A stretch of DNA of 64,000 nt from positions 1 through 64,000 of the forward strand of contig NZ_JAAVUZ010000004.1 in NCBI RefSeq assembly GCF_018449675.1, given 5' to 3'. Shown here piece after piece: positions 1-20,583 of the stretch. Under the pieces are notes generated by a model. It was not told the origin of the DNA. It saw only the letters and a program-made list of their open reading frames with translations, and did no database searches. Made by a program: the position numbers and the translations under genes. Each line of letters starts with the position of its first letter. Position 1 is the stretch's first letter. Origin of the DNA: Glaciihabitans sp. dw_435. GTDB taxonomy: Bacteria > Actinomycetota > Actinomycetes > Actinomycetales > Microbacteriaceae.

Positions 1-1045
1 TCGTGTTCTGTTTCGGGATCACGATCTGCTTGAAGATCAGCAGCACGGCCGCGGCGACCGGAATGGCGACGAGGGCTCCGAGAACCCCGAGCAGGGTTCC
101 ACCGGCGAGAGCCGCGATGACCACGACCACACCGGGCACCTGAACTGCCTGGTTCATGATGCGGGGGTTGATCACGTATGCCTCGACCTGCATGTAGATC
201 AGGTAATAGATCGCGACCGCGATGACCTGCCATCCGGGGCCCTGGAACAGCAGCACGCTCAGGGAAATGACGACCGAGGCGGAGATGGTTCCGACCAGCG
301 GAATCAGCGATCCGATCAGGGCGATGAAGGCAAGCAGTGCCGAATACTTCACGTGGAAGATGAACGTGAGGACGATGAAGCTCAGCACACCGTTGACGAG
401 GGCGAGTGCGGCCTGGCCCATGACGAAGCGACCGACGGCCCGCGTGATCTGCTCGGCGATGTCGACGAACTTCTCACGCTTCGAGGCCGGCACCAGCTGG
501 TACAGGCCACGCTTGATGCTGGCGAGTGATGCGACAAAGTACAGGGTGAGGATCAGCACGATGACGACGCCGAACAGGCCGTTGAAGATGCTGACGCCGG
601 CGGACAGGATGCCCGTACCGATGCTGAGGACGTCCAGGCCCTTGACGAACGAGTCGAGCTGATCGAGCAGGTCGTCCACGGGGAGCCACGGCACAGACGA
701 CTGCAGGTCCTTGGCGAACGTCGGCGTGAAGACGGTGGGGACGATGTCCTGCAGCTGCTTGACCAGGTTGGACACCTGCTCGGACACCACGGGAATGATT
801 GCGAAGACCAGACCCGCGAACACGGCGAGGACGCCCACCAGAACGGTGAGGATGGCAACCGCGCGCGGCCACTTACGCTTCTCCAGGAACGACACCAGCG
901 GATCGAGTCCAAGCGCGATGAAGATCGCCGCTCCCACATAGGTGAGGATGGTGGCCAGGTTCCCGATGGCGGAACCAATACCGATGGCAACAATGACGCC
1001 CAGCCCGCCGAATAAACCCAGCTGGAACGAATTTGAAATCTTCAA
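1..1045 (-). CDS. AI-2E family transporter (C-terminus cut by window edge)
   Basis: Polytopic inner-membrane permease of the AI-2E/PerM-like family; the transported substrate cannot be deduced. Reading from a TTG at 1045 the protein starts KISNSFQLGLFGGLGV and contains repeated hydrophobic segments, the family's central soluble stretch (around DLQSSVPWLPVDDLLDQL), and near the edge the typical LLGVLGALVAIPVAAAVLLI segment. The frame is open to base 1, so the last residues and stop lie outside. A gagagg Shine-Dalgarno sits just upstream of the TTG, which is why that start was chosen. The gene begins 32 bases after the stop of the coiled-coil gene on the same strand, so the two may be cotranscribed. 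A paralogue lies at 29204-30319. Confidence 0.85.
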   Translation of the reverse strand, partial: MKISNSFQLGLFGGLGVIVAIGIGSAIGNLATILTYVGAAIFIALGLDPLVSFLEKRKWPRAVAILTVLVGVLAVFAGLVFAIIPVVSEQVSNLVKQLQDIVPTVFTPTFAKDLQSSVPWLPVDDLLDQLDSFVKGLDVLSIGTGILSAGVSIFNGLFGVVIVLILTLYFVASLASIKRGLYQLVPASKREKFVDIAEQITRAVGRFVMGQAALALVNGVLSFIVLTFIFHVKYSALLAFIALIGSLIPLVGTISASVVISLSVLLFQGPGWQVIAVAIYYLIYMQVEAYVINPRIMNQAVQVPGVVVVIAALAGGTLLGVLGALVAIPVAAAVLLIFKQIVIPKQNT

Positions 1046-1077: not shown

Positions 1078-3294
1078 CTAGTCCTGGTTACTGACCTTCT
1101 CTGCCTGTGACAATACCCCGCGCAGGCTCTCGAAGTAGCCAGCCACGGCCTCGCGCTCGATACGAATCTGGGAAAGTCGGTCTTCCGCTTCCTCGACGAG
1201 CTTTGCCGTGCGAGCCTCAGCATCGGCGATCATCGCCTTGGCACGTGCTTCGCCGTTTTCGAGCACCTCGGTCGCCGTGGCGTTCGCGCGGTCGCGGGCA
1301 GTTGTCAGCTCCAGCTTGGCGCTGGCTTCGGCGGCGTCCGCCTCTGCGCGCTTCTCGGCCGCGCGGCGGGTTGCCTCGGTGAGCTGCGCGGTTGCCTCGT
1401 CCAGGTACTTCTGCATCTGGGCGGTGGCTTCCTGGTGCTTGGCGAGCAGATCCTTCTCTGCTTCGTCGCGACGGGCCTTCAGCTCGACATCGAGGTCGAC
1501 CCGGGCCTGCTCGGCGTCGCGGGCGAGGGTGGTCAGCGTCTCGTCGGTTTCGAACGCGAGGCGTGCCCGCACGGTTTCTGCCTCCTGCGCCAGTTCCGCA
1601 CGCTGGCGCTCGACGTCGCGCGCGACATCCGCTCGCTCCTTATCGACATCGTGTACCAGGGCGCTTCGGGCCTCGGTGATCTCGACATCGAGCGCGGCAC
1701 GCGCCGTTGCCAGGTCGTCGGCCAGTTCGGTGCGCTGCTGCGCGGACTCCGCGGCGACCACGGCACGAATGCCCGCGGCCTCGGCGGCAATAACAGAGGC
1801 AGCTTCGACAGACTGGGAGTCGAGGATGATCCGTGCTTCGGCGATCTCCGCGGCGAGGGCGGCCCGGCCCGCGGCGAGTTCGTTCTCCAGCGCGGTGCGT
1901 CCGGCCAGCAGCTCCGCCTCGAGCGCGTCGCGCCGGGAGACGATCTCATTCTCAAGCTCGGTGCGGGCGGTGGTGACGTCGTTCGCCAGTTCGGACTTCG
2001 CGGTGGTGATCTCGATATCGAGTTCGGTGCGTGCCGTGGTGACCTCGTTGTCGAGCTCCGTGCGGGCAGACGTGATCTCGTTTTCCAACGCCGTCCGGGC
2101 GCTGGTGATCTCGTTGTCCAGCTCGGTGCGCGCGGTCGTCGTCTCGTTTTCGAGTTCCGTGCGTCCGAGGGTGATCTCGTTGAGCAGCTCGGTACGGCGG
2201 GTCACCGTCTCGTTGTGGAGCTCCGTCTGGCGGGTGACGATCTCGTGCTCGAGCTCCGCCCGGCGCGCGACGATGTCATTGTCGGCGTCTGTCGTGCGCA
2301 CGGAGATCTCGGTGTCCAGCGCGGCCCGGCGGGTGTCGATCTCGTTGTCGAGCTCAGCCCGGCGGGTGGCCATCTCGTTCTCGAACAACGCGCGGGCGGT
2401 GTCCGCATCGTTGGCGATCTGGGCGCGGGCGGCCTCGGACTCGTTTGCCAGCTGCTCGCGACCCGTTGCCAGTTCCTGCGCGATCTGGGCGCGGGCCGTC
2501 TCCACTTCCAGGGCGAGGGCCGCGCGGGTGGTCTCCAGCTCGCGGGTGAGATCGGTGCGGCCCTGCTCGATGTCACGGGCAAGATCGCCGCGCAGCCGGG
2601 CGTTTTCGTTTTCGTAGTCCGAGCGGCCCTGCTCGGTATCGCGAGCGAGAATGGCGGCGGCATCCCGCGCCTCGCTGGCCTCGCGCGCGGCGACGGCGCT
2701 CAGTTCGGCGACCTCGCGTTCGCCGGCTGCGCGGATGGCGGATGTCTCGCGCTTGGTGGTCGTCCGGATCTCCGCGGCTTCGGTGGCGACGGCACCGCGG
2801 ATAGCGGCGGCCTCACGAACCGCCTCGTTGATGAGGAGTTCAGCTTCGGCGGTCGCGCGGGCGACGGTGTCCTCGGCCTCCGCGCGGGCGGACTCACGCG
2901 CGGCGGCGGCGGCCGCGGTGGCATCGGACAGCACGCGATCGGCGGACTCCGAGGCATCCTGAACCAGGCGCGACACTTCGCCCTGCACCTGGCTGCGCAG
3001 CTTCTCGGCGTCGATGTCCGCCTGGCTGATCAGACGGGTGGACTGCTCCTCCGCCATGCGCAGGGTCGTCTCGAGCTTTGTGCCGAGACCGGAGTAGGTG
3101 GGAGTACCGGCTTCGTCGAGCTCGGCCTGCAGGTCTTCGGCCACAGCGCTGAGGCGCCTGACCTCTTTGGCCGCTTCCGCGCGGTCGGCGTTGGCCTTGA
3201 TCAGCTCACGCCGAAGGTCCTGGACGGCCTTGTTGACCTCGTCCTTTTTGTAGCCGCGAAGCTCGATTCCGAAATCTGCGTCGTCTGCAGCCAC
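1078..3294 (-). CDS. DivIVA-like hendecad coiled-coil protein, 738 aa
   Basis: Probably a cytoskeletal or polar scaffold protein, by resemblance in design to DivIVA and to actinomycete Scy/FilP proteins; this role is inference. GTG start with a gaggag ribosome binding site. Residues 1-60 look DivIVA-like (FGIELRGYKKDEVNKAVQDL). Residues 70-223 are Ala/Glu/Arg-rich helix. Residues 224-619 are 36 consecutive 11-residue repeats of the form R-T-E-L-x-N-E-I-T-x-A with no insertion or deletion. Residues 620-738 are a further coiled coil ending GYFESLRGVLSQAEK. There is no cysteine, signal peptide or membrane segment, so it should be cytosolic. Hendecads favour a right-handed or nearly straight coiled coil, unlike classical heptads. 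Long open frames on the opposite strand are by-products of the repeat and base composition. Confidence 0.88.
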   Translation of the reverse strand: MAADDADFGIELRGYKKDEVNKAVQDLRRELIKANADRAEAAKEVRRLSAVAEDLQAELDEAGTPTYSGLGTKLETTLRMAEEQSTRLISQADIDAEKLRSQVQGEVSRLVQDASESADRVLSDATAAAAAARESARAEAEDTVARATAEAELLINEAVREAAAIRGAVATEAAEIRTTTKRETSAIRAAGEREVAELSAVAAREASEARDAAAILARDTEQGRSDYENENARLRGDLARDIEQGRTDLTRELETTRAALALEVETARAQIAQELATGREQLANESEAARAQIANDADTARALFENEMATRRAELDNEIDTRRAALDTEISVRTTDADNDIVARRAELEHEIVTRQTELHNETVTRRTELLNEITLGRTELENETTTARTELDNEITSARTALENEITSARTELDNEVTTARTELDIEITTAKSELANDVTTARTELENEIVSRRDALEAELLAGRTALENELAAGRAALAAEIAEARIILDSQSVEAASVIAAEAAGIRAVVAAESAQQRTELADDLATARAALDVEITEARSALVHDVDKERADVARDVERQRAELAQEAETVRARLAFETDETLTTLARDAEQARVDLDVELKARRDEAEKDLLAKHQEATAQMQKYLDEATAQLTEATRRAAEKRAEADAAEASAKLELTTARDRANATATEVLENGEARAKAMIADAEARTAKLVEEAEDRLSQIRIEREAVAGYFESLRGVLSQAEKVSNQD
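1438..2625 (-). repeat. 36 tandem 33-bp coding repeats (11 residues each)
   Basis: In-frame array encoding residues 224-619 of the coiled-coil protein. Units read like RTELDNEITSA, RTALENEITSA, RTELDNEVTTA. The central units (about 1900-2250) are nearly identical in protein and similar in DNA, while outer units are diverged, consistent with expansion from the middle. The phase is exact: 36 units of 11 account for all 396 residues. Confidence 0.88.
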
Positions 3295-3560: not shown

Positions 3561-5333
3561 GTGCGATTTGTACTCGCCATCATTAGTTTTGTGCTCGCTG
3601 CCGTCCTCATGGGAATTGGGATCGGCCAGCGCACCATCTTTGCGGGACCCGATGAGGTCGTCGCGAAGACCAGCCAGGCGAGCCCCGCCGCGGTGACCGT
3701 CATCGACGGATCAGCGCTCGGCGCACACCCGCAGGGCCAGACGGTGACGCTGTCCGGTGCCACCAAGATCAGCGCCGCCTACGGGCGCACCACCGACGTG
3801 CTCGGCTGGGTTGGTACGACCACCTACAACCACGTCACCTTCGATGAGAAGACCGGCAAGCTGGTGTCGAAGGTGGTGGAGGGCGATGCCACCGAGGTCC
3901 CGACCCTCGCCGGTTCCGACCTGTGGCTGAAGGAATACAACGCGGTCGACAGCCTGCAGTTCCGTGCAAACCTCCCCGACGACGTTTCCGTCATCGCCGT
4001 GTCGAACGGTGTGGACGCGGCCCCGGCTGACGTCACCATCCGCTGGCCCCTCGACAACTCGACCCCGTGGTCGGGTCCGCTTCTGGCGGCCGGTGCCGCA
4101 CTGTTGCTCCTCGGCCTCGGCCTGCTCATCTGGGCGCTGACCCACATGCGCAACTCCCGCGGTCCGCGACGCACGCCGCCGAAGCAGCCCAAGATGCCCA
4201 AGTTGCCGCGGCAGCCCCGCTACAAGCCCAAGAAGGCCAACGCCAAGGCGATCGCCGCTCCCAAGGGACGCCGGGCGACCCGTCGGTCGATCGCCGTTGT
4301 GCCCGTTCTTCTCGTTGGCGCGCTCGCGCTCACGGGCTGCACCACGGACATCCTCCCCGCGCTGACCGGCAAGGCGGCGGCCACGCCGACCGCAACTGCC
4401 ACCGAAACACCCACCACTGTCGTGCTGCCGCCTGCCGTCACCGAGGCGCAGATCGTTTCGATCGTGCGCGACATCAGCACCGTCACGGCGAAGTCCGACA
4501 GCGACCTCGACAAGAAATTGATTGCGACGCGGATGACCGGACCGGCGCTCGAACTGCGTCTGGCCAATTACACCGTGCGTAAGGCCAACTCCAAGCTCCC
4601 GGGTGCCACCGCGATCCTTCCGGGCCCGATCAAGCTGAGTCTGCCGCAGCAGACGGACACCTGGCCGCGCTCGGTCTTCGTCGTTGTACAGGACGAGACC
4701 GACACCACGGTCGCCCCGATGGCCCTCATGCTGGTGCAGGCCGACGCCCGCTCGAATTACAAGGTCGAGTACGCAACGCCGCTGGCGGCCGACGCAGTAA
4801 TCCCGGGGGTCGCCGCGGCCAACGTGGGTGCCGCCCAGCTCGGTCTCGACAACAAGTTCCCGCAGATGGAGCCGGGCAAGATTGCCGCCGCCTATGGTGA
4901 CATCCTCATGAAGGACAAGGCGTCCACGTCCTACGCATCGTTCCAGGCTGCCGGTGACGAGCTGCGCACGGCCGTGGGACTCGCGGCGAAGCAGGCCACG
5001 AAGAAGGCTCTTCCCAAGACCGCGAAGATCACGTTCACCAACTCTCCTGGCACCGGCGACGTCATTGCGCTGGCAACGAACAACTCCGGTGCGCTGGTCA
5101 CGGTGCAGTTGAATGAGACCGAGACGGTGACCCCCGTGTCGAGCGGCGCCGCCATCAGTTCCAAGGGCGCCGTCGCGTCACTGCTGGGCAAGGCCAAGTC
5201 CACCAAGGGCATCGTCACGACGTACAGCGATCAACTGTTGTTCTACGTACCGTCTGCCGAAGAACCGAGCAAGATAGTTTTGCTCGGTTTCACCCAGGGT
5301 TTGATCTCAGCCAAGGAGTACAAGAAGAAGTGA
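3561..5333 (+). CDS. Membrane protein with internal lipobox, 590 aa, function unknown
   Basis: Unrecognised protein with an odd architecture. Residues 1-21 are a hydrophobic N-terminal segment; 30-172 a probable extracytoplasmic domain; 173-194 a membrane segment (LLAAGAALLLLGLGLLIWAL); 195-243 a very basic cytoplasmic linker (KPKKANAKAIAAPKGRR); 244-260 a second signal-like segment ending in a perfect lipobox LTGC with Cys260; then a Thr/Pro-rich spacer and a 290-residue domain ending SAKEYKKK. It reads like an anchored protein fused to a lipoprotein. If signal peptidase II acts at Cys260, a separate lipoprotein of about 331 residues would be released. GTG start with aaaggag eight bases upstream. 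The stop overlaps the GTG of the next gene (GTGA), so the two are translationally coupled. Confidence 0.85.
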   Translation: MRFVLAIISFVLAAVLMGIGIGQRTIFAGPDEVVAKTSQASPAAVTVIDGSALGAHPQGQTVTLSGATKISAAYGRTTDVLGWVGTTTYNHVTFDEKTGKLVSKVVEGDATEVPTLAGSDLWLKEYNAVDSLQFRANLPDDVSVIAVSNGVDAAPADVTIRWPLDNSTPWSGPLLAAGAALLLLGLGLLIWALTHMRNSRGPRRTPPKQPKMPKLPRQPRYKPKKANAKAIAAPKGRRATRRSIAVVPVLLVGALALTGCTTDILPALTGKAAATPTATATETPTTVVLPPAVTEAQIVSIVRDISTVTAKSDSDLDKKLIATRMTGPALELRLANYTVRKANSKLPGATAILPGPIKLSLPQQTDTWPRSVFVVVQDETDTTVAPMALMLVQADARSNYKVEYATPLAADAVIPGVAAANVGAAQLGLDNKFPQMEPGKIAAAYGDILMKDKASTSYASFQAAGDELRTAVGLAAKQATKKALPKTAKITFTNSPGTGDVIALATNNSGALVTVQLNETETVTPVSSGAAISSKGAVASLLGKAKSTKGIVTTYSDQLLFYVPSAEEPSKIVLLGFTQGLISAKEYKKK

Positions 5334-6235
5334 CCAACGTTCCTCCTCTCTCACCGGCCAGCCTCCGTGGCGCGGTCGACCTCTCGTCCCTCGTTAACCC
5401 GCGTCCGGCGCCGGTAGCACCGCCCGCCGGTAGCTCCACGGTTGTGCTGTCCGCCACCGACGCCACGTTCACCCAGGTTCTCGAGCTGTCGAACACCGTG
5501 CCGGTCGTCGTGGAGTTTTACGGCCAGGGCGTCGAGTCAACGCTCGGACCGCTCATCGAGCAGTACGGGGGACGACTGGTACTGGCTACCATCGAGGGCA
5601 CCTCGAACCCGCAGCTCGTGCAGGCGTTCAACGTGCAGCAGGTTCCGACGGTTGCCGCGGTCGTCGGCGGACGCCCCATCCAGCTGTATGTCGGCGAATA
5701 CCCCGATGCCGAGGTGCGGACGGTCCTCGACCAGGTTCTGGAACTCGCCGCACAAAACAACGTCACAGGCACCGTTCCCATGGGGGACAGCGTGCCGACT
5801 CCCGAGCCCGTCGAGGAGCCCCTGCCCCCGCACCACCAGGAGGCCTACGACGCCATCGCTGCCGGTGACTACGAGGCAGCCATCGGCGAGTACAAAACGG
5901 CCATCGCGCAGAACCCGCGTGACACCCTCGCCGTCGCCGGCCTCGCGCAGGTGTCGCTCCTGCACCGGTTGGACGGCGCTAGCTTCGACGAAATTCGTGC
6001 CGCCGCGGCATCCGCCCCGTCCGACGTCGACGCGCAACTGGCCGTCGCCGACCTCGACGTCAGCGGTGGACACCTCGACGACGCCTTTGACCGGCTGCTG
6101 ACGCTCTTCCCGAGCCTCGACGCTGACGGCAAGAACGCCGTACGCACGCGCCTGCTTGAATTCTTCGAAATTACGGGAGCGGATGACCCGCGCGTCATTG
6201 CAGCTCGCCGCCGCCTCACGGCGCTTCTGTACTAG
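5330..6235 (+). CDS. Thioredoxin-fold/TPR protein, YbbN (CnoX)-like
   Basis: Resembles the YbbN/CnoX family of thioredoxin-like co-chaperones: an N-terminal thioredoxin-fold domain (about residues 40-140, with VVVEFYGQGVESTLGPLIEQ and the cis-proline region QQVPTVAAVVGG) followed by helical TPR-like repeats (about 165-300, AIAAGDYEAAIGEYKTAIAQNP). The active-site CxxC is replaced by GQGV and the whole protein has no cysteine, so it cannot be a disulfide oxidoreductase; a holdase or scaffold role fits better. There is no signal peptide, so it is probably cytosolic. The GTG start overlaps the stop of the upstream membrane protein gene. A strong hairpin follows 22 bases after the stop. Confidence 0.85.
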   Translation: MTNVPPLSPASLRGAVDLSSLVNPRPAPVAPPAGSSTVVLSATDATFTQVLELSNTVPVVVEFYGQGVESTLGPLIEQYGGRLVLATIEGTSNPQLVQAFNVQQVPTVAAVVGGRPIQLYVGEYPDAEVRTVLDQVLELAAQNNVTGTVPMGDSVPTPEPVEEPLPPHHQEAYDAIAAGDYEAAIGEYKTAIAQNPRDTLAVAGLAQVSLLHRLDGASFDEIRAAAASAPSDVDAQLAVADLDVSGGHLDDAFDRLLTLFPSLDADGKNAVRTRLLEFFEITGADDPRVIAARRRLTALLY

Positions 6236-6311: not shown

Positions 6312-8522
6312 CTAGATGGCGGGGTCAATCCCCGACGTCAGTGCCGCGGGCTCATCCTTGCGCAGCTTCAGCCAGAGTCCGGCCAGCGGCGGAAGCGTGA
6401 GCTGTGCGGACGCGGGACGACCGGCCCACGGCTCATCCGTCGCTTCGACCGAGCCGAAGTTGCCAACACCCGAGCCGCCGTATTCGGCCGCATCGGTGTT
6501 GAGCAATTCGTCCCAGGTGCCGGCGAAGGGGAGTCCGGACCGGTAGTTGACGGGGGTGCCGCTGAAGTTCATCAGCACGGCGATCGGCTGGCCATCGGTA
6601 TCCCAACGTAGGAAGGAGATGACGTTGTTCGCCGCGTCGCCGCCCTCGAGCCACTCGAACCCGGCAGCGCTGTTGTCCTGGCTCCAGAGGGCGCCCTCGG
6701 CCTTGTAGACGGTGTTGAGCTGCGACACGAGCTTGAGCAGACCCTGGTGCACGGGCTGGTCGAGAATCCACCAGTCGAGTCCGCGCTGCTCGCTCCACTC
6801 CGACGGCTGACCGAACTCGCTGCCCATGAACAGCAGCTGCTTGCCGGGGTGTGCCCACATAAACGCGAGGTAGGCCCGCACGTTCGCGAGCTTCTGCCAC
6901 TGGTCACCGGGCATCTTCGCCAGCAGCGATCCCTTGCCGTGCACGACCTCGTCGTGGCTGATCGGCAGCAGGAAGTTCTCGCTGAACGCATAGAGGAAGC
7001 TGAAGGTGATGTCGTTGTGGTGGTGCGAGCGGTACATCGGGTCGAACTGCATGTACTTGAGCGAGTCGTGCATCCAGCCCATGTTCCACTTGACGCCGAA
7101 CCCGAGGCCCTCGTTCTCGGTGGGAGCGGTGACTCCGCCCCACGACGTCGACTCCTCGGCGATCATCACGATGCCGGGGTTGCGCTTGTACGCGGTGGCG
7201 TTGACCTCCTGCAGGAAGCTGATGGCCTCGAGGTTCTCGCGTCCGCCGTACTTGTTGGGCAGCCAGTCGTCGCCCTCACGGGAGTAGTCCAGGTACAGCA
7301 TGGATGCCACGGCGTCGACGCGAAGTCCGTCGATGTGGAACTCCTCCAGCCAGTACAACGCGTTGGCCACCAGGAAGTTGCGCACCTGGGAGTCACCGAA
7401 GTTGAAGATGAGCGTGCCCCAGTCGGGCTGCTCACCGCGGCGCGGGTCGGAGTGCTCGTACAGCGGCTGGCCGTCGAACTTGGCGAGCGCCCACTCGTCC
7501 TTGGGAAAGTGGCCGGGCACCCAGTCCATGATCACGCCGAAGCCGGCGCGGTGCAGACGGTCGATGAGGTACTTGAGGTCGTCGGGGGAGCCGAAGCGGC
7601 TGGTGGGCGCGTAGTAGCCCGTGACCTGGTAGCCCCAGGATCCGCCGAAGGGGTGCTCGGCCAGCGGCATGAACTCGACGTGGGTGAACCCCGTCTCGGT
7701 CAGGTACTCGATCAGCTGGTCAGCGAGGTCACGGTATCCGAGTCCCGGACGCCACGACCCGACGTGCATTTCGTAGACGCTCATCGGGGAGTTGAGCACG
7801 TCGGTCGCGCCGCGGGTGGCGAGCCAGGCGGCGTCGTCCCACACGTGGTGCGTCTCGGCGACCACGGAGGCCGTTGCCGGCGGGTGCTCGGTGTGGCGGG
7901 CCATGGGGTCCGCGCGGCGAACCCACTCACCGGTGGCGGTCTGCAGCTCGAACTTGTAGGTGTTGCCGGGCGTGAGCCCCGGAACGAACAGCTCCCACAC
8001 GCCGTTGTTGTCGAGCCGGCGCATCGGGTAGAGCACGCCGTCCCAGCTGTTGAAGTCACCGAGCACGCGCACCGCGATGGCGTGCGGAGCCCAGACGCTG
8101 AACGAGGTGCCCTCGACCCCCTCGTGCGGACGGTAGTGAGCGCCCAGCACGTTCCAGATCTGTTCGTGGCGGCCCTCGCCCCAGAGGTAGAGGTCAACCT
8201 CTCCCACCGAGGGGACGAAGCGGTACGGGTCATCCATCACCCAGGCGGGTCCGTTGTCGTAGCTGGTCTCGAGCGTGTACGCCTGCCCCGGTCCGGCGGC
8301 GAAGCCCTGCCACAGGCCTTCGGAGAGGTGTGCGAGCTTGATGCGGGTGCCGTCTGCCTGCACGGCAGTGACGCTCCACGCGAGCGGGCGCACGGCACGG
8401 ATGACGAAGCCTCCCTCAACGGGGTGCTGTCCGAGCGTCTCGTGCGGGCGCGGGTGGCTCCCGCTGACGAGGGAGGTGACGAGGCCGGGATGCAGTTCCG
8501 GGAACGCGTGCGTCTGAGCCAT
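6312..8522 (-). CDS. glgB: 1,4-alpha-glucan branching enzyme GlgB
   Basis: Makes alpha-1,6 branches in glycogen-type glucan, in the cytosol. 736 residues, normal for long GlgB. The N-terminal modules include the CBM48 region ([20 protein letters not shown]). The GH13 barrel follows, with [19 protein letters not shown], the nucleophile motif GLRVDAVAS (Asp near residue 400), the acid/base motif VMIAEEST (Glu near 455) and [13 protein letters not shown] carrying the transition-state stabiliser. The ATG overlaps the stop of glgE (TGATG), so GlgE and GlgB are translated as a coupled pair, matching their known cooperation: GlgE extends chains and GlgB branches them. Transcription probably comes from the glgE promoter and ends at the hairpin 6258-6291. 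Confidence 0.96.
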
Positions 8523-10573
8523 CAGCTGCCTTTCGTGTAGTCGATAGCGAGAATGTGGACGGGCTCCGTAAACGCGTCGAGTCTGACGTAGTTGTCGGTG
8601 CCCCAGGTGAATCGTTGGTCGGTGATCAGGTCTTTGACATCGAAGGTGCTGCCGGGCTCGAGACCGAGCTTCGTCAGGTCAAGATGCACGGTGGTCTCCC
8701 GCACCGAGTGCGGGTCGACGTTCGCCACGACGATGATGCCGTCGGGCTTGCCCGGCCGGGTGAACTGCGCCGGAAGGAACTTCGAGTAGACGAGCATCGA
8801 GTCGTCGTCGCTCCAGTGCACCTCGAGGTTGCGCAGCTGACGGAGGGCGGGATGACCCGCGCGGATCTTGTTCAGCTTCGCGAGGTAGGGCGCGAGCGAT
8901 GCACCCATCTTCTCGGCCTTGGCGTAGTCGCGTGGCTTGAACTCGAACTTCTCGTTGTCGATGTTCTCCTCGCTGCCGGGACGTGCCACGTCTTCGAACA
9001 GCTCGTATCCGGAGTACACACCCCAGGTGGGGGCTGCCGTCGCGGCGAGTGCTGCGCGGATCTTGTACGCGGCGGGGCCACCGAACTGGAGGTACTCGGT
9101 GAGAATGTCGGGGGTGTTTACGAAGAGGTTCGGGCGCATGAAGTCGCTCGTCTCGTGACTCAGGCTCGAGAAGAACTCCTCGAGCTCGACCTTCGTGTTG
9201 CGCCACGTGAAGTACGTGTAGGACTGCTGGAATCCGACGGCGCCGAGGGACTGCATCATTGCGGGGCGGGTGAACGCCTCCGCGAGGAAGATCACGTCGG
9301 GGAACTCGATGTTGATCTCGTGGATCAGCCATTCCCAGAACTGGAGCGGCTTGGTGTGCGGGTTATCCACGCGGAAGATGTGGACACCGACGCCGATCCA
9401 GTACCTGACGATGCGGAGTATCTCTTCGCGCAGGCCGATGGGATCGTTGTCGAAGTTGATCGGGTAGATGTCCTGGTACTTCTTCGGCGGGTTTTCCGCA
9501 TACGCGATGCTTCCGTCGGGCAGCGACGTGAACCATTCCGGGTGCTCCTTGACCCACGGGTGGTCCGGCGAGCACTGCAGCGCCAGGTCGATGGCGATCT
9601 CAAGGTTGTGCTTACGCGCGCTCTCGAGGAAGGCGGAGAAGTCGTCGATGGTGCCGAGCTCCGGGTGGATGGCGTCGTGGCCGCCCGCCGCGCTGCCGAT
9701 GGCCCAGGGCGATCCGGGATCTCCCGGGGCGGGGTCGAGCGAGTTGTTCGGGCCCTTGCGGAAGGTCTTTCCGATCGGATGAATCGGCGGCAGGTACACC
9801 ACGTCGAAGCCCATCTGGGCGATCGCGGGCAGCCGCGCGGCGGCGGTGCGGAACGTGCCCGACTCCCACTGGCCGTCCTTGTCCTTGCGGGCACCTTCGC
9901 TGCGGGGGAAGAACTCGTACCAGCTACCGACTCCCGCGCGGGTGCGCTCGACGCGCAGCACGAGCTGGTCGCTGTCGGTCACGAGGCTCGCAATGGGAGT
10001 GACTTCGAGGAGCGCGATCAGTCGCGCGTCCGTCGCCGCGCTCAGGCGCACTGCGGGCGTGAGCTTTTGGTCCTTGAACACCCGGATGGTGTCCTTGAGG
10101 ATTGCCGGGGTCGGCTTGGTTTCGCCGCTGGCACGCTTGAGGAGGTCGACTCCCATGCGGAACATCAGTTCCACATCCATGCCGGCGGGCACCTTGATTT
10201 CTGCGTTGTGCAACCAGCTGGCCCAGTCGTCGCTGTAGGCGCGAATCGTGTAACGCCATTCGCCGGCCTCGGGCACCTGCACGTCCGCCTGCCAGCGGTC
10301 CGTACCGGGCTCCACGGGACGCATGCGGTGCCGGCTCTCGGCACCCTCGGGGTCGACGAGCAGCAGGTCGACGCCGAGAAGGTCGTGTCCTTCGCGGAAC
10401 ACTGTCGCCTTAAAAGGAATGACCTCGCCGGCATACGCCTTGGCGGGCCAGCGGTTCTCCGGCTGCTGCGGAAGAAGATGTCGGATCGGTATTCTGCCGA
10501 TTCGAGGCTCGTAAGAGTTGTTGGTTGCGCTTTTTGTTTGTACGGCGGCTACGCCGTCATCGAGTTTGGCCAC
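8522..10573 (-). CDS. glgE: Alpha-1,4-glucan:maltose-1-phosphate maltosyltransferase GlgE
   Basis: Transfers maltosyl units from alpha-maltose-1-phosphate to the non-reducing end of alpha-1,4-glucan (GH13 subfamily 3), the polymerising step of the GlgE pathway. 683 residues. It has an N-terminal beta-sandwich starting after [13 protein letters not shown], the barrel motif [18 protein letters not shown], the nucleophile segment [12 protein letters not shown] (Asp near 401), the acid/base segment [11 protein letters not shown] (Glu near 429) and the C-terminal domain with [13 protein letters not shown]. The GTG start is preceded by TACGGT and six bases with no Shine-Dalgarno, suggesting a leaderless mRNA. 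It is divergent from glgP. The enzymes that make maltose-1-phosphate are not in the window. Confidence 0.96.
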
Positions 10574-10579
10574 AATCCG

Positions 10580-10585
10580 ACCGTA
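10580..10585 (-). promoter_or_regulatory. Putative -10 box of leaderless glgE transcript
   Basis: On the minus strand TACGGT is followed by six bases and the glgE GTG. This matches the actinobacterial TANNNT -10 consensus placed so that transcription would start at the start codon. No ribosome binding site is visible. The -35 region is not convincing. Confidence 0.55.
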
Positions 10586-10644
10586 CCGCTAAAACCCGCG
10601 TGAACGTTCAGGTTAGATTTGCCCCAGGCCCATGTTGCTCGCAT

Positions 10645-10650
10645 AGTCTT
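10645..10650 (+). promoter_or_regulatory. Putative -10 box of leaderless glgP transcript
   Basis: TAGTCT is followed by six bases (gcaagg) and the glgP GTG at 10657. Only 83 bases separate the glgP and glgE start codons, so the two divergent promoters almost touch and could be co-regulated. Confidence 0.55.
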
Positions 10651-10656
10651 GCAAGG

Positions 10657-13212
10657 GTGAAGGCAATCCGACGATTTACAGTGCACACCGTACTTCCCGA
10701 GGCGTTGACATCGCTTGAGGAACTTGCTACTAACCTGCGATGGTCATGGCACCATCCCACGCGACAGCTCTTCGCGTCGATCGAACCCGCGGTATGGGAC
10801 GAGATCGGGCACGATCCTGTCGGCCTTCTCGGCGCGGTGGAGCCTGCGCGACTTCAGGAGCTCGCCTCCGACCAGGGCTTCGTGGATCGCGCGAACTCCC
10901 TGCGTGATGACCTTCACGCCTATCTCCACAATCCACGGTGGTACCAGTCGTTGACGGATGCCCCGGAGTCGATCGCGTATTTCTCGCCGGAGTTCGGCAT
11001 CGCCGCCGCTCTTCCGCAATACTCGGGCGGCCTGGGAATCCTCGCCGGTGACCACCTGAAGAGTGCGTCCGACCTGGGTGTCCCCATCATCGGAGTGGGC
11101 CTCTTCTATCGAGCGGGATACTTCCGCCAGGCCATTTCCCGCGAAGGGTGGCAGCAGGAGACCTATCCGGTGCTCGATCCCGATGGTCTTCCGCTCAGCG
11201 TCCTGCGCAACCCCGACGGCACCGCGGTCATCGTCACGCTCGCCCTTCCCGAGGGCCGCGCACTGTCCGCGCGCATCTGGGTGGTCGCGGTCGGCCGAAT
11301 CAAACTGCTGCTGCTGGACACGGACATCCCCGAGAACGAGGAGACCCTGCGCTCGGTCACCGACCGTCTGTACGGCGGCGGGGGAGAGCATCGCCTGCTG
11401 CAGGAGCTGCTCCTTGGCATCGGCGGAGTTCGTGCGATCAAGGCATTCACGGAACTGACCTCGGCGCCGGTTCCGGAGGTATTCCACACCAACGAGGGAC
11501 ACGCGGGGTTCCTCGGGCTGGAGCGCATCAGCGATCTGATCGGCGCCGGACTTTCCTTCGACGAGGCACTGCAGGTCGTGCGTGCCGGAACGGTGTTCAC
11601 GACGCACACCCCGGTTCCCGCGGGAATCGACAGGTTCGAAGCCTCCCTCATCACCCGGTACTTCTCCACAGACCTGCTTCCGGGCGTCGCGCTCGACGAG
11701 GTCCTGACGCTCGGCGCGGAGAACTACGCGGGCGGAACGCCGGACACGTTCAACATGGCAGTCATGGGCCTGCGCCTTGGGCAGCGCGCCAACGGTGTCT
11801 CGAAGCTGCACGGCGACGTGTCGCGCGGCATGTTCGGCAAGCTTTGGCCCGACTTCGACCAGGACGATGTGCCCATCACCTCGGTGACGAACGGCGTTCA
11901 CGCGCCGACGTGGACCGATCCTCTGCTGCTGGAGCTGGCCTCCGACCGGCTCGGCACGACCGAGACGACCACCGCCGACTGGAACTCCCCGTCCGTCACC
12001 GACGCCGACCTGTGGCGCGTCCGCGGCGACATGCGTCAGCAGCTCGTGACCGACGCGCGCAACCGCGTGTCGGCGGCCTGGCAGGAAGAGAACCCGGGCG
12101 TCGGGGACCCCGCCTACATCAACACCCTGTTGGATCCGTCGATCCTCACGATCGGCTTCGCTCGCCGCGTTCCAACCTACAAGCGACTCACCCTCATGCT
12201 GCACGACGAGGACCGGCTGCGCTCGCTGCTGCTGCACCCGACCCGTCCCATCCAGATCGTGATCGCCGGCAAGTCCCACCCCGCCGACGACGAGGGCAAG
12301 GCGCTGATCCAGAAGCTCGTCGAGTTCGCATCCGGTGTCGACGTGCGTCATCGCATCGTCTTCCTGCCGAACTATGACATCGCCATGGCGCAGCTGCTGT
12401 ACCCGGGAACGGACGTCTGGCTCAACAACCCGCTGCGACCGCTCGAAGCCTGCGGCACCAGCGGAATGAAGGCCGCGCTGAACGGGTCGCTCAACCTGTC
12501 GATTCTCGATGGGTGGTGGGCAGAGTTCTACGACAAGGAAAACGGCTGGGCCATCCCGACCGCCGACAGCGCCGGTGACGGTGCCGAGCGCGACAAGCTC
12601 GAAGCCGATGCCATGTACGACCTCATCGAGCACCAGATCGCCCCGCGGTTCTACGACCGCAACGAGGACGACGTGCCGACCCGCTGGGTTGCATCGATTC
12701 GCCACACCCTCTCGACCCTGTCGCAGCCGCTCAGCGCAGACCGGATGGTGCAGGAGTACGTCAACCGTCTGTACATCCCCGCGGCCCACGCGGAGCACGC
12801 CATCAGCGCCGACTCGTACCAGCCGGCGCGGGACCTGTCGGAGTGGAAGGAACGCGTGCGCGCCGCCTGGCCGAGTGTGCAGGTCACCCACGTCGAGTCC
12901 GGCGGCGTTGACGCGGTTCCCCAGGTGGGCGACTCGCTGCACGTGCGAGCCCTTGTCGAACTCGGCAGACTGAACCCCGAAGACATCAAGGTGGAGGTCG
13001 TGTACGGTCGCGCCAAGGAGGGCGACCGACTCGCGGGCATCCAGCGCCAGTCCCTGACCTTTGCGTCCCGCGAGCCGGGGCAGCCGGCGGTGTTTACGGG
13101 TACGGTCACGTTGCAGCGCCCGGGCAGTTTCGGCTACAACGTGCGGGTGGTTCCCTCCAGTGACCTGCTCGCGACCCCCGCGGAGCTTGGTCTGATCGCG
13201 GTCGCCCATTGA
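10657..13212 (+). CDS. glgP: Alpha-glucan phosphorylase GlgP
   Basis: PLP-dependent phosphorolysis of alpha-1,4-glucan to glucose-1-phosphate (GT35). About 851 residues. It has the N-terminal DUF3417-type region (AIRRFTVHTVLPEALTSLEE), the core with AYFSPEFGIAAALPQYSGGL and FHTNEGHAGFLGLERI, and the PLP-lysine motif EACGTSGMKAALNGSLNLS (Lys near residue 605). The GTG at 10657 was preferred to an in-frame codon at 10525, which would overlap divergent glgE and place non-conserved residues in front. The stop overlaps the TTG of the following lipoprotein gene, so an unusual coupling of a cytosolic glucan enzyme with an exported lipoprotein is seen. Confidence 0.95.
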   Translation: MKAIRRFTVHTVLPEALTSLEELATNLRWSWHHPTRQLFASIEPAVWDEIGHDPVGLLGAVEPARLQELASDQGFVDRANSLRDDLHAYLHNPRWYQSLTDAPESIAYFSPEFGIAAALPQYSGGLGILAGDHLKSASDLGVPIIGVGLFYRAGYFRQAISREGWQQETYPVLDPDGLPLSVLRNPDGTAVIVTLALPEGRALSARIWVVAVGRIKLLLLDTDIPENEETLRSVTDRLYGGGGEHRLLQELLLGIGGVRAIKAFTELTSAPVPEVFHTNEGHAGFLGLERISDLIGAGLSFDEALQVVRAGTVFTTHTPVPAGIDRFEASLITRYFSTDLLPGVALDEVLTLGAENYAGGTPDTFNMAVMGLRLGQRANGVSKLHGDVSRGMFGKLWPDFDQDDVPITSVTNGVHAPTWTDPLLLELASDRLGTTETTTADWNSPSVTDADLWRVRGDMRQQLVTDARNRVSAAWQEENPGVGDPAYINTLLDPSILTIGFARRVPTYKRLTLMLHDEDRLRSLLLHPTRPIQIVIAGKSHPADDEGKALIQKLVEFASGVDVRHRIVFLPNYDIAMAQLLYPGTDVWLNNPLRPLEACGTSGMKAALNGSLNLSILDGWWAEFYDKENGWAIPTADSAGDGAERDKLEADAMYDLIEHQIAPRFYDRNEDDVPTRWVASIRHTLSTLSQPLSADRMVQEYVNRLYIPAAHAEHAISADSYQPARDLSEWKERVRAAWPSVQVTHVESGGVDAVPQVGDSLHVRALVELGRLNPEDIKVEVVYGRAKEGDRLAGIQRQSLTFASREPGQPAVFTGTVTLQRPGSFGYNVRVVPSSDLLATPAELGLIAVAH

Positions 13213-19923: not shown

Positions 19924-20583
19924 CTAACGCAGGTAGGGGATGGCGAGCTTGTTGTCGAAGACCTTGCCGGCGTTCGCCTTGACCAGGCCCATGATGATCA
20001 CCACGAGGTGGGCTACACCCAGCGCCAGGTAGATCATGATCGGGATGAACGGGCTCTGCGTGCGGATCACGGTGGCAAGCAGAACCACCCACAGAATGAG
20101 CACGACCATGACGGTAATGACCGTCAGTCCCCAGTTGGCGGCGCGACGTCCGTTCTCGGCGGCAAGGCCGCCCTTCTTTTGCGACCCGGGGAAGGTCGCC
20201 GCCATCACGATGGCGCCCACGAGGAGTCCGATGAACGGGATCGGGAAGTACGAGATAAAGCCGAGGGCATAGCTCTGCGCGCCGGTCGGCACCGGGGGCG
20301 CGTACTGTCCGGGTGCGCCGTACTGCGGCGCCCCGTATTGCGGGGCTCCATACTGGCCGGGCGCCGGATATTGTCCCGGTGCGGGGTACTGGCCGGGTGG
20401 GGCGTACTGTCCGGGTGCGGGGTATTGGCCGGGCGCGGCCGGATCGCCGGTGGCAGAGGGCGATGCTGCCGGGTACGGCGGCTGCTCCGCGCCGGCTGGC
20501 GGCACCACGGGAGGAGCGACCGGAGGCGCAGAGACGGGGGCTGACGGGTCCGGCTGGACGGGGGTGGTTCCGTTATCGGTCAT
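19924..20583 (-). CDS. DUF4870-like membrane protein with Pro/Gly/Gln/Tyr-rich N-terminus
   Basis: 219 residues. The first 110 are low-complexity, with about eight PGQY/APQY units, probably disordered and cytoplasmic. The rest has three to four membrane segments (ALGFISYFPIPFIGLLVGAIV, TVITVMVVLILWVVLLATV, IMIYLALGVAHLVVIIMGLV) in the arrangement of DUF4870 proteins. Function unknown. ATG start. It converges with mnmA and is divergent from ligA with an 87-base gap. Confidence 0.8.
   Translation of the reverse strand: MTDNGTTPVQPDPSAPVSAPPVAPPVVPPAGAEQPPYPAASPSATGDPAAPGQYPAPGQYAPPGQYPAPGQYPAPGQYGAPQYGAPQYGAPGQYAPPVPTGAQSYALGFISYFPIPFIGLLVGAIVMAATFPGSQKKGGLAAENGRRAANWGLTVITVMVVLILWVVLLATVIRTQSPFIPIMIYLALGVAHLVVIIMGLVKANAGKVFDNKLAIPYLR

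Follow-up and report, generated by a model that had tools for sequence, protein, structure and literature searches.

A probable FilP-family rod protein of Glaciihabitans with a hendecad array whose length differs between relatives mostly in steps of eleven residues

FilP of Streptomyces coelicolor (SCO5396; Bagchi et al. 2008, PMC2680258) is a long helical rod that, according to the sections of the literature used here, forms banded filaments and binds DivIVA (PMC6599971, PMC2680258, PMC4255298), its 37-nm rods yielding bands of about 60 nm (PMC6599971). In the same sections, two motifs mark its family (PMC2680258), whose members form filaments in vitro (PMC2680258, PMC6599971) and include filament-forming proteins from Janibacter and M. 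bovis (PMC2680258). FilP/Scy clusters, including Micrococcales, were described by Martinez-Goikoetxea and Lupas (2023, PMC9858780), with lengths from below 200 to above 1000 residues; earlier work has thus already described the FilP family together with its hendecads and variable length. Here, we describe a gene for a 738-residue protein in the first 64,000 nucleotides of contig NZ_JAAVUZ010000004.1 of Glaciihabitans sp. dw_435 (assembly GCF_018449675.1), a stretch referred to below as the window. The protein has the domain order and the hendecads of those clusters and very probably belongs to one of them, judging by its sequence; the sections of PMC9858780 drawn on here give neither a period for each protein nor a step size for the length differences. 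With a probability of roughly three in four, we consider it a FilP-family, intermediate-filament-like cytoskeletal protein in which fixed ends flank a hendecad array that varies in 11-residue quanta.

A profile of the N-terminal (N) module, built from 44 rows, matched Streptomyces-type FilP with 98.2% probability (E 5.9e-14) over 189 columns with both FilP motifs aligned, whereas the alignment with the genome's own DivIVA covered 30 columns at 22% probability. Because the FilP match spans most of the N module and the DivIVA match only 30 columns, we place the protein in the FilP family. The first-pass annotation of the window, made from the letters alone, had named DivIVA or Scy as the nearest known protein, which these profiles contradict, and the membrane-curvature-sensing head that it proposed found no support; the DivIVA-like N-terminal motif that it noticed (RGYKKDEVN) is present. 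A profile of the C-terminal (C) module also matches Streptomyces-type FilPs, weakly, at 29–32 bits, with strong composition bias and with E-values that refer to a set of four sequences. In the genome itself, a profile search at E 0.001 returned this single FilP-type gene and no second FilP- or Scy-like gene; a separate DivIVA is encoded elsewhere (49.9 bits). NCBIfam assigns the protein a marginal DivI1A domain. The Streptomyces-type loci come from four of ten listed genomes of a class-level genus with genomes of 7–10 Mb. At all four, a protein of 309 residues, as against 738 here, adjoins a frame of 1310–1446 residues, and RGYE lies near the start of both long frames inspected. From size, adjacency, genome size and published descriptions (PMC4255298, PMC9858780), we infer that the 309-residue proteins are Streptomyces-type FilP and that their long neighbours are Scy. 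Matches to the N-module profile occur in 197 of the 248 genomes of the order and in 105 of the 148 of the class. Within the same bacterial family, the Microbacteriaceae, matches are weak in genus g85 (best 2.6e-14), of which there are at least nine such genomes (G107, G215, G229, G243, G257, G312, G326, G350, G361), three of these nine lacking an N-module match; the rod gene has either diverged or been lost in this genus.

For the N module (44 relatives, mean pLDDT 89.5), AlphaFold places helices at residues 17–62 and 72–219, and for the whole protein it predicts, with modest confidence, a single helix from residue 67 to 736 (both models start at residue 2, and helix numbers were converted to protein numbering). 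RGYKKDEV precedes the first of these helices and PTYSGLGTKLE...LR.AEEQ the helix from residue 72, both aligned to Streptomyces-type FilP; PTYSGLG forms a conserved break between the short heptad helix and the hendecad rod, and the sole proline of the protein is residue 65. A hydrophobic residue stands before the Arg of RGY, and 12 residues precede the motif. The long straight rod anticipated in the first pass is in line with this model: a rise of 0.15 nm per residue would give the second helix a length of about 100 nm, with a hendecad rod of about 670 residues. No solved structure matched in sequence at E 0.01.

Residues 224–619 divide exactly into the 36 gapless 11-residue units that had been read from the sequence, residue 224 beginning at position 2625 and residue 619 finishing at 1438. 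The positional consistency of the units lies 36 s.d. above 500 residue shuffles, and the stretch, shifted against itself, shows identities of 0.418 (lag 11) and 0.398 (lag 22), compared with 0.074–0.122 at lags 3–10 and 12–21. The large hydrophobics of this stretch peak at a period of 3.668, close to 11/3 (power 32.8; 32.6 at 11/3 itself), with a power of 1.1 at 3.5 and 4.4 at 51/14, which confirms hendecads and not heptads; over rod residues 71–735, the power is 29.9 at 11/3 and 0.7 at 51/14. At the DNA level, Tandem Repeats Finder reports periods of 33, 66 and 99 nt between 1955 and 2384. Arg occupies hendecad position 1 in 31 of the 36 units, Leu position 4 in 27, Glu or Asp position 7 in 35, and Ile, Leu or Val position 8 in 24. 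The proposed consensus R-T-E-L-x-N-E-I-T-x-A describes the central units but not the whole array (Thr at position 2 in 13/36, Asn at 6 in 15/36, Ile at 8 in 12/36), and some units, such as ASVIAAEAAGI, depart from it strongly. The description of the array as long and pure likewise stands as regards the 11/3 period and fails as regards its borders and evenness: the phase starts before residue 224, the local signal is uneven, and the last two to three units lie in the fixed C module, length differences between species falling within residues 221–590, approximately. In hydropathy windows of 55 residues, the 11/3 phase is 39–58 degrees over residues 45–209 and mostly about 85–155 degrees over residues 177–649, and the signal is gone past about residue 650. 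On an 11/3 wheel, positions 11 (Ala/Arg/Gly), 4 (Leu) and 8 (Ile/Leu/Val) line up in a narrow stripe at 262–327 degrees, flanked by Glu/Asp at 229 degrees and Arg at 0 degrees; large hydrophobics make up 21.5% of residues.

The rods of Streptomyces are reportedly built on another period, as Walshaw and colleagues are said to have described in 2010: 51 residues (51/14), composed of four hendecads and one heptad. The four Scy-like frames indeed peak at 3.641–3.643, with a power of 1–3 at 11/3, and the contrast with Scy drawn in the first pass holds. The four FilP-like rods of Streptomyces type also peak near 51/14 (3.641–3.644). However, they comprise 215 residues, are 94–98% identical to the first of them and retain at 11/3 between one third and three quarters of their 51/14 power; since the two periods cannot be told apart reliably over so short a stretch, the apparent difference in period between our rod and FilP is only suggestive. 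Here, neither residues 224–619 nor residues 71–735 follow the 51/14 period, and the sections of PMC9858780 and PMC2680258 consulted do not state it as a requirement of the family. Of the 146 arrays in the bacterial family that reach 100 residues or more, 143 peak within 0.0125 of 11/3 and none within 0.012 of 51/14; within the family, then, such an array is not rare, contrary to the first-pass claim.

Rod length is expressed as d, counted from the G of RGY to the Y of YFExLRG, the C-terminal anchor. One set comprised 85 proteins of the bacterial family, namely our own and one each from 84 of 125 other matching genomes, the lower-ranked 41 lying outside the set and G100, with a frame of 206 residues, being left out. 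The other consisted of the best 80 of 315 confirmed loci, hereafter the named loci. Modulo 11, d leaves 2 in 56 of the 85 proteins and 9 in 27, with single cases of 6 and 8; in the 77 named loci with both anchors, it leaves 2 in 60 and 9 in 17. The pooled set, from which three named loci with a gene cut by a contig end (L133, L164, L167) were dropped and in which identical proteins were merged, holds 152 distinct proteins with 55 different lengths between d 332 and 1069. On these sequences, unit number varies between species and genera, as had been predicted. Kinship makes the remainder counts non-independent, and a tree-based count is fairer. Fitch parsimony on a FastTree of the fixed blocks yields 75 length changes (mean 116 with lengths shuffled over the tips), of which 67 are multiples of 11 where 6.8 are expected; other moduli from 2 to 19 are near chance. 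Six of the remaining eight changes are 4 or 7 modulo 11, which keeps the helix phase, and two are neither. As an internal control, the tails past the C anchor, most of them 18–20 residues long, occupy all 11 classes modulo 11.

Close relatives show the same steps and, above all, stability. At 70% or more block identity, 179 of the 180 pairs of unequal length differ by a multiple of 11, and at 80% or more, 401 of 428 pairs are equal in length. In Curtobacterium, d is 563 in 23 of 24 records, and in Cryobacterium it is 504 (remainder 9) in 16 of 17; the remaining record titled Cryobacterium (BB307, locus L193) has d 695 with remainder 2 and may belong to another genus. Seven records sharing three species names are equal in length throughout (three of C. 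flaccumfaciens, two of C. luteum and two of C. pusillum). These near-constant lengths within genera and species names speak against frequent change within species, as far as collections holding a single genome per species can tell. Of the 44 proteins in the remainder-9 class, 40 have their register break, of size 7 (or minus 4), 128–139 residues ahead of the C anchor (exceptions L055, L107, L108 and L117), and this suggests a single old event at the C-module border. Outside the bacterial family, both anchors, searched for with a strict motif, were present in 37 of 55 fetched loci, with remainders 6 (15 loci), 5 (11), 8 (6), 10 (3) and 2 (2). The longest rods occur in one genus of another family (f10, g94; L221–L237), whose 17 proteins have 14 lengths from d 764 to 1130 and only the remainders 5 and 8.

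The simplest source of the steps would be local duplication or loss of 33-nt units. Alignment of eight close pairs of unequal length revealed 12 array insertions, of 1, 2, 3 or 11 units. In the clearest two, L059/L060 and L060/L166, the insert, of 11 or 22 residues, shares identities of 0.94 and 0.91 with the unit next to it; for the other insertions the best copy is 0.66–0.82 identical. Long exact direct repeats are found in the arrays of L192 (69 nt), L086 (51 nt), L161 (45 nt) and L060 (45 nt), where recent unit gain might best be sought. In the window gene, the likeness of the central units, which had been taken to suggest recent expansion, sits at the protein level, and the DNA shows no trace of such an expansion: no exact direct repeat exceeds 17 nt, a length that 88 of 200 synonymous-codon shuffles also reach (mean 16.5), and the lag-33 nucleotide identity of 0.585 (0.578 when shuffled) is reached in 27 of 200. 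Across the relatives, length has no link with third-position repeat similarity (rho 0.04). It correlates with amino-acid repeat identity (0.35), nucleotide repeat identity (0.25) and the longest exact repeat (0.44), weakly, because longer arrays give more chances of a long repeat.

Based on these observations, we propose the following hypothetical scheme, in which (i) the head would dimerise two chains into a parallel dimer; (ii) the end modules would drive assembly, the array between them acting as a spacer that sets rod length; and (iii) length would change by in-frame gain or loss of 33-nt units. Length would be quantised because only whole hendecads, or in rarer cases a heptad or a deletion of 4 residues, hold both modules in register on the same helix face, any other step turning one end module against the other; this rotation of the end modules, together with repeat-based mutation, would explain the quantisation. 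By analogy with the described FilP proteins, the protein may function as a filament rod near the cell pole.

Several observations weigh against the FilP assignment or against the regularity of the array and its steps. The Pfam DivIVA model (PF05103) scores 16.9 bits, and 21.6 bits in a genome search, against a cut-off of 28. The family description in PMC9858780 places a DivIVA-like motif before a heptad coiled coil; here the motif is found with two deviations, both D of the published RGYDxxEVD being replaced (by K and N in RGYKKDEVN), the second of them present at 90% or more in the 44 relatives, and the extended hendecad rod follows. The whole-protein AlphaFold model is a single chain built from five sequences, with mean pLDDT 72.3 and pTM 0.32. 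Orthology with Streptomyces filP by neighbourhood failed: the six other neighbour proteins searched (AI-2E, the 590-residue membrane protein, Trx-TPR, GlgB, GlgE and the phosphorylase) all lack a match at E 0.001 in the four Streptomyces-type 18-kb loci. Windows within residues 287–385 and 441–539 give only a weak local hendecad signal, and the pattern is thus less even than 'pure' implies. With regard to length, L113 and L115 fall outside both remainder classes, and all 75 steps derive from one FastTree topology and Fitch parsimony with rough ancestral lengths. Below 70% identity, many differences are not multiples of 11 (multiples account for 839 of 1998 differing pairs at 45–50%), since such pairs straddle two remainder classes. 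In six of the 12 array insertions, the best copy is a non-adjacent unit.

Three other identities were considered for the protein. Scy shares with it a very long hendecad-rich rod with an RGY motif, and a Scy-like role, in which it would serve as a polarity scaffold, its rod tethering the machineries of cell wall and chromosome instead of forming filaments, would suit its length, the lack of a second FilP- or Scy-like gene and the reach of the N profile to Scy-like frames at about 1e-10. We nevertheless find this role unlikely, and Scy identity was rejected: in the three genomes with both frames listed, the FilP-size frame scores better (1e-20 to 1e-21 vs 4e-11 to 3e-10), a shorter N profile found only FilP-size frames in the four loci, and the 11/3 period differs from that of Scy. 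Moreover, as far as the sections consulted describe it, Scy starts right before RGY (PMC9858780), exceeds 1000 residues and has its gene beside filP (PMC9858780, PMC4255298), as the four Scy-like frames also have, whereas our protein keeps 12 residues before RGY, has 738 residues and is accompanied in its genome by no second FilP-type gene at E 0.001. That it is a DivIVA paralogue which itself senses membrane curvature and organises the pole appears quite improbable. The RGY...V motif followed by a heptad helix, the hydrophobic residue before its Arg and the weak DivIVA match recall DivIVA/GpsB, yet only about 30 residues are comparable, the Pfam score stays below its cut-off, and the genome has a true DivIVA of its own; DivIVA identity was rejected on these grounds and on the FilP match across most of the N module. 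Eleven-residue repeats are also the unit of apolipoprotein- and LEA-like proteins, and a Pfam Apolipoprotein match (PF01442, residues 467–613, E 1.5e-9) could point to an amphipathic lipid-binding helix lying on or protecting a membrane, not a coiled coil. We regard this as very improbable, and apolipoprotein A1/A4/E identity was dismissed, as the match reaches 38.3 bits, far under the cut-off of 90, and FilP-type modules stand at both sides of the array. The narrow hydrophobic stripe agrees with the a-d-h hendecad core, containing a small residue, described for dimers in the section of PMC9858780 used, and would suit a lipid-binding face less well.

Within the FilP-family reading, the unit number allows two interpretations. 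We tentatively suggest, while considering it rather doubtful, that the array is a genetic ruler, in which a hendecad number selected in each lineage sets the repeat spacing, reach or stiffness of a polar filament; a rod of pure 11/3 period, in contrast to Scy with its 51/14 rod, could be extended unit by unit without turning its end modules against each other. The quantised length could also be a mutational by-product, with recombination between 33-nt units as its sole source and a unit number devoid of function, an explanation to which we give slightly less than even odds. It would account for the wide span of lengths and for the array insertions whose best copy is the adjacent unit (6 of 12, including the clearest two). 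It sits less easily with the equal lengths of most close pairs and with the nearly fixed lengths in Curtobacterium and Cryobacterium, where the two arrays listed with values are still repetitive. These points are no proof of selection, and near-constant length in two genera could reflect a low mutation rate instead.

The coordinates of the rod gene, its parts and its neighbours are given in Table 1. Neighbour counts cover up to 6 kb on each side of the rod gene and are lower bounds because of contig ends and short flanks. The divergent neighbour gene encodes a 590-residue protein in which an apparent membrane segment at the N-terminus and a second one are followed by a basic loop rich in Pro and Lys, an internal lipobox (LTGC) and then a SCO2278-like part; a lipobox-like motif lies mid-protein in 77 of 80 relatives, and such an internal position seems unusual for a membrane protein. 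Within the flanks covered, none of the 24 Curtobacterium records showed an AI-2E gene, and at the class-level locus L244 an AI-2E gene lies near two FilP-like genes. Farther along the window, the gene of a DUF4870-type protein (19924–20583, minus strand) carries tandem repeats of 18 and 36 nt at 20292–20438, in the N-terminal part.

Table 1. Positions in the window of the rod gene, its modules and motifs, and the neighbouring genes
Feature	Residues	Coordinates	Strand	Basis or remark
FilP-family rod protein gene (probable)	738 aa	1078..3294	-	GTG start; in-frame stop codons upstream; FilP profile match
DivIVA-like motif RGYKKDEVN	13-21	3232..3258	-	44 relatives all have R, G, Y and V
First helix (predicted)	17-62	3109..3246	-	residues 16-61 heptad, peak period 3.48
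Second FilP-family motif GTPTYSGLGTKLETTLRMAEEQS, at start of second helix	63-85	3040..3108	-	alignment of relatives and FilP profile match
Fixed-length N module	2-220	2635..3291	-	44 relatives: 221 columns for 219 residues
Variable hendecad array, about 34 units	about 221-590	1525..2634	-	length change between species mostly in multiples of 11
36 hendecads of the first-pass annotation	224-619	1438..2625	-	gapless 11-residue units
Fixed C module, YFESLRG anchor and short tail	about 591-738	1081..1524	-	
AI-2E family transporter, runs off the window		2..1045	-	near rod gene in 51/80 named loci
Divergent membrane protein, internal lipobox, SCO2278-like C part	590 aa	3561..5333	+	beside rod gene in 80/80 named loci
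Thioredoxin-TPR (Trx-TPR) protein		5330-6235		in 77/80 named loci
GlgB, GlgE		within 6315-13209	-	GlgB in 63/80 named loci, GlgE in 45/80
Glycogen-phosphorylase-type protein		within 6315-13209	+	

We found no published account of FilP-type rod length quantised by 11, in a literature survey that left subscription literature mostly uncovered and does not settle priority. If our reading is correct, the Microbacteriaceae and their order would hold a natural length series of one cytoskeletal rod with fixed ends, from about 50 up to about 160 nm, each step adding about 1.6 nm when helix geometry is applied to the anchor distances. Such a series would make it testable whether the rod length of a subunit sets the spacing and mechanics of its filament. 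It also provides sequence material for hendecad coiled coils, called largely unexplored in the section of PMC9858780 used here, and would represent a case, on the scale of a protein family, of coiled-coil length evolving in quanta that keep the helix phase.

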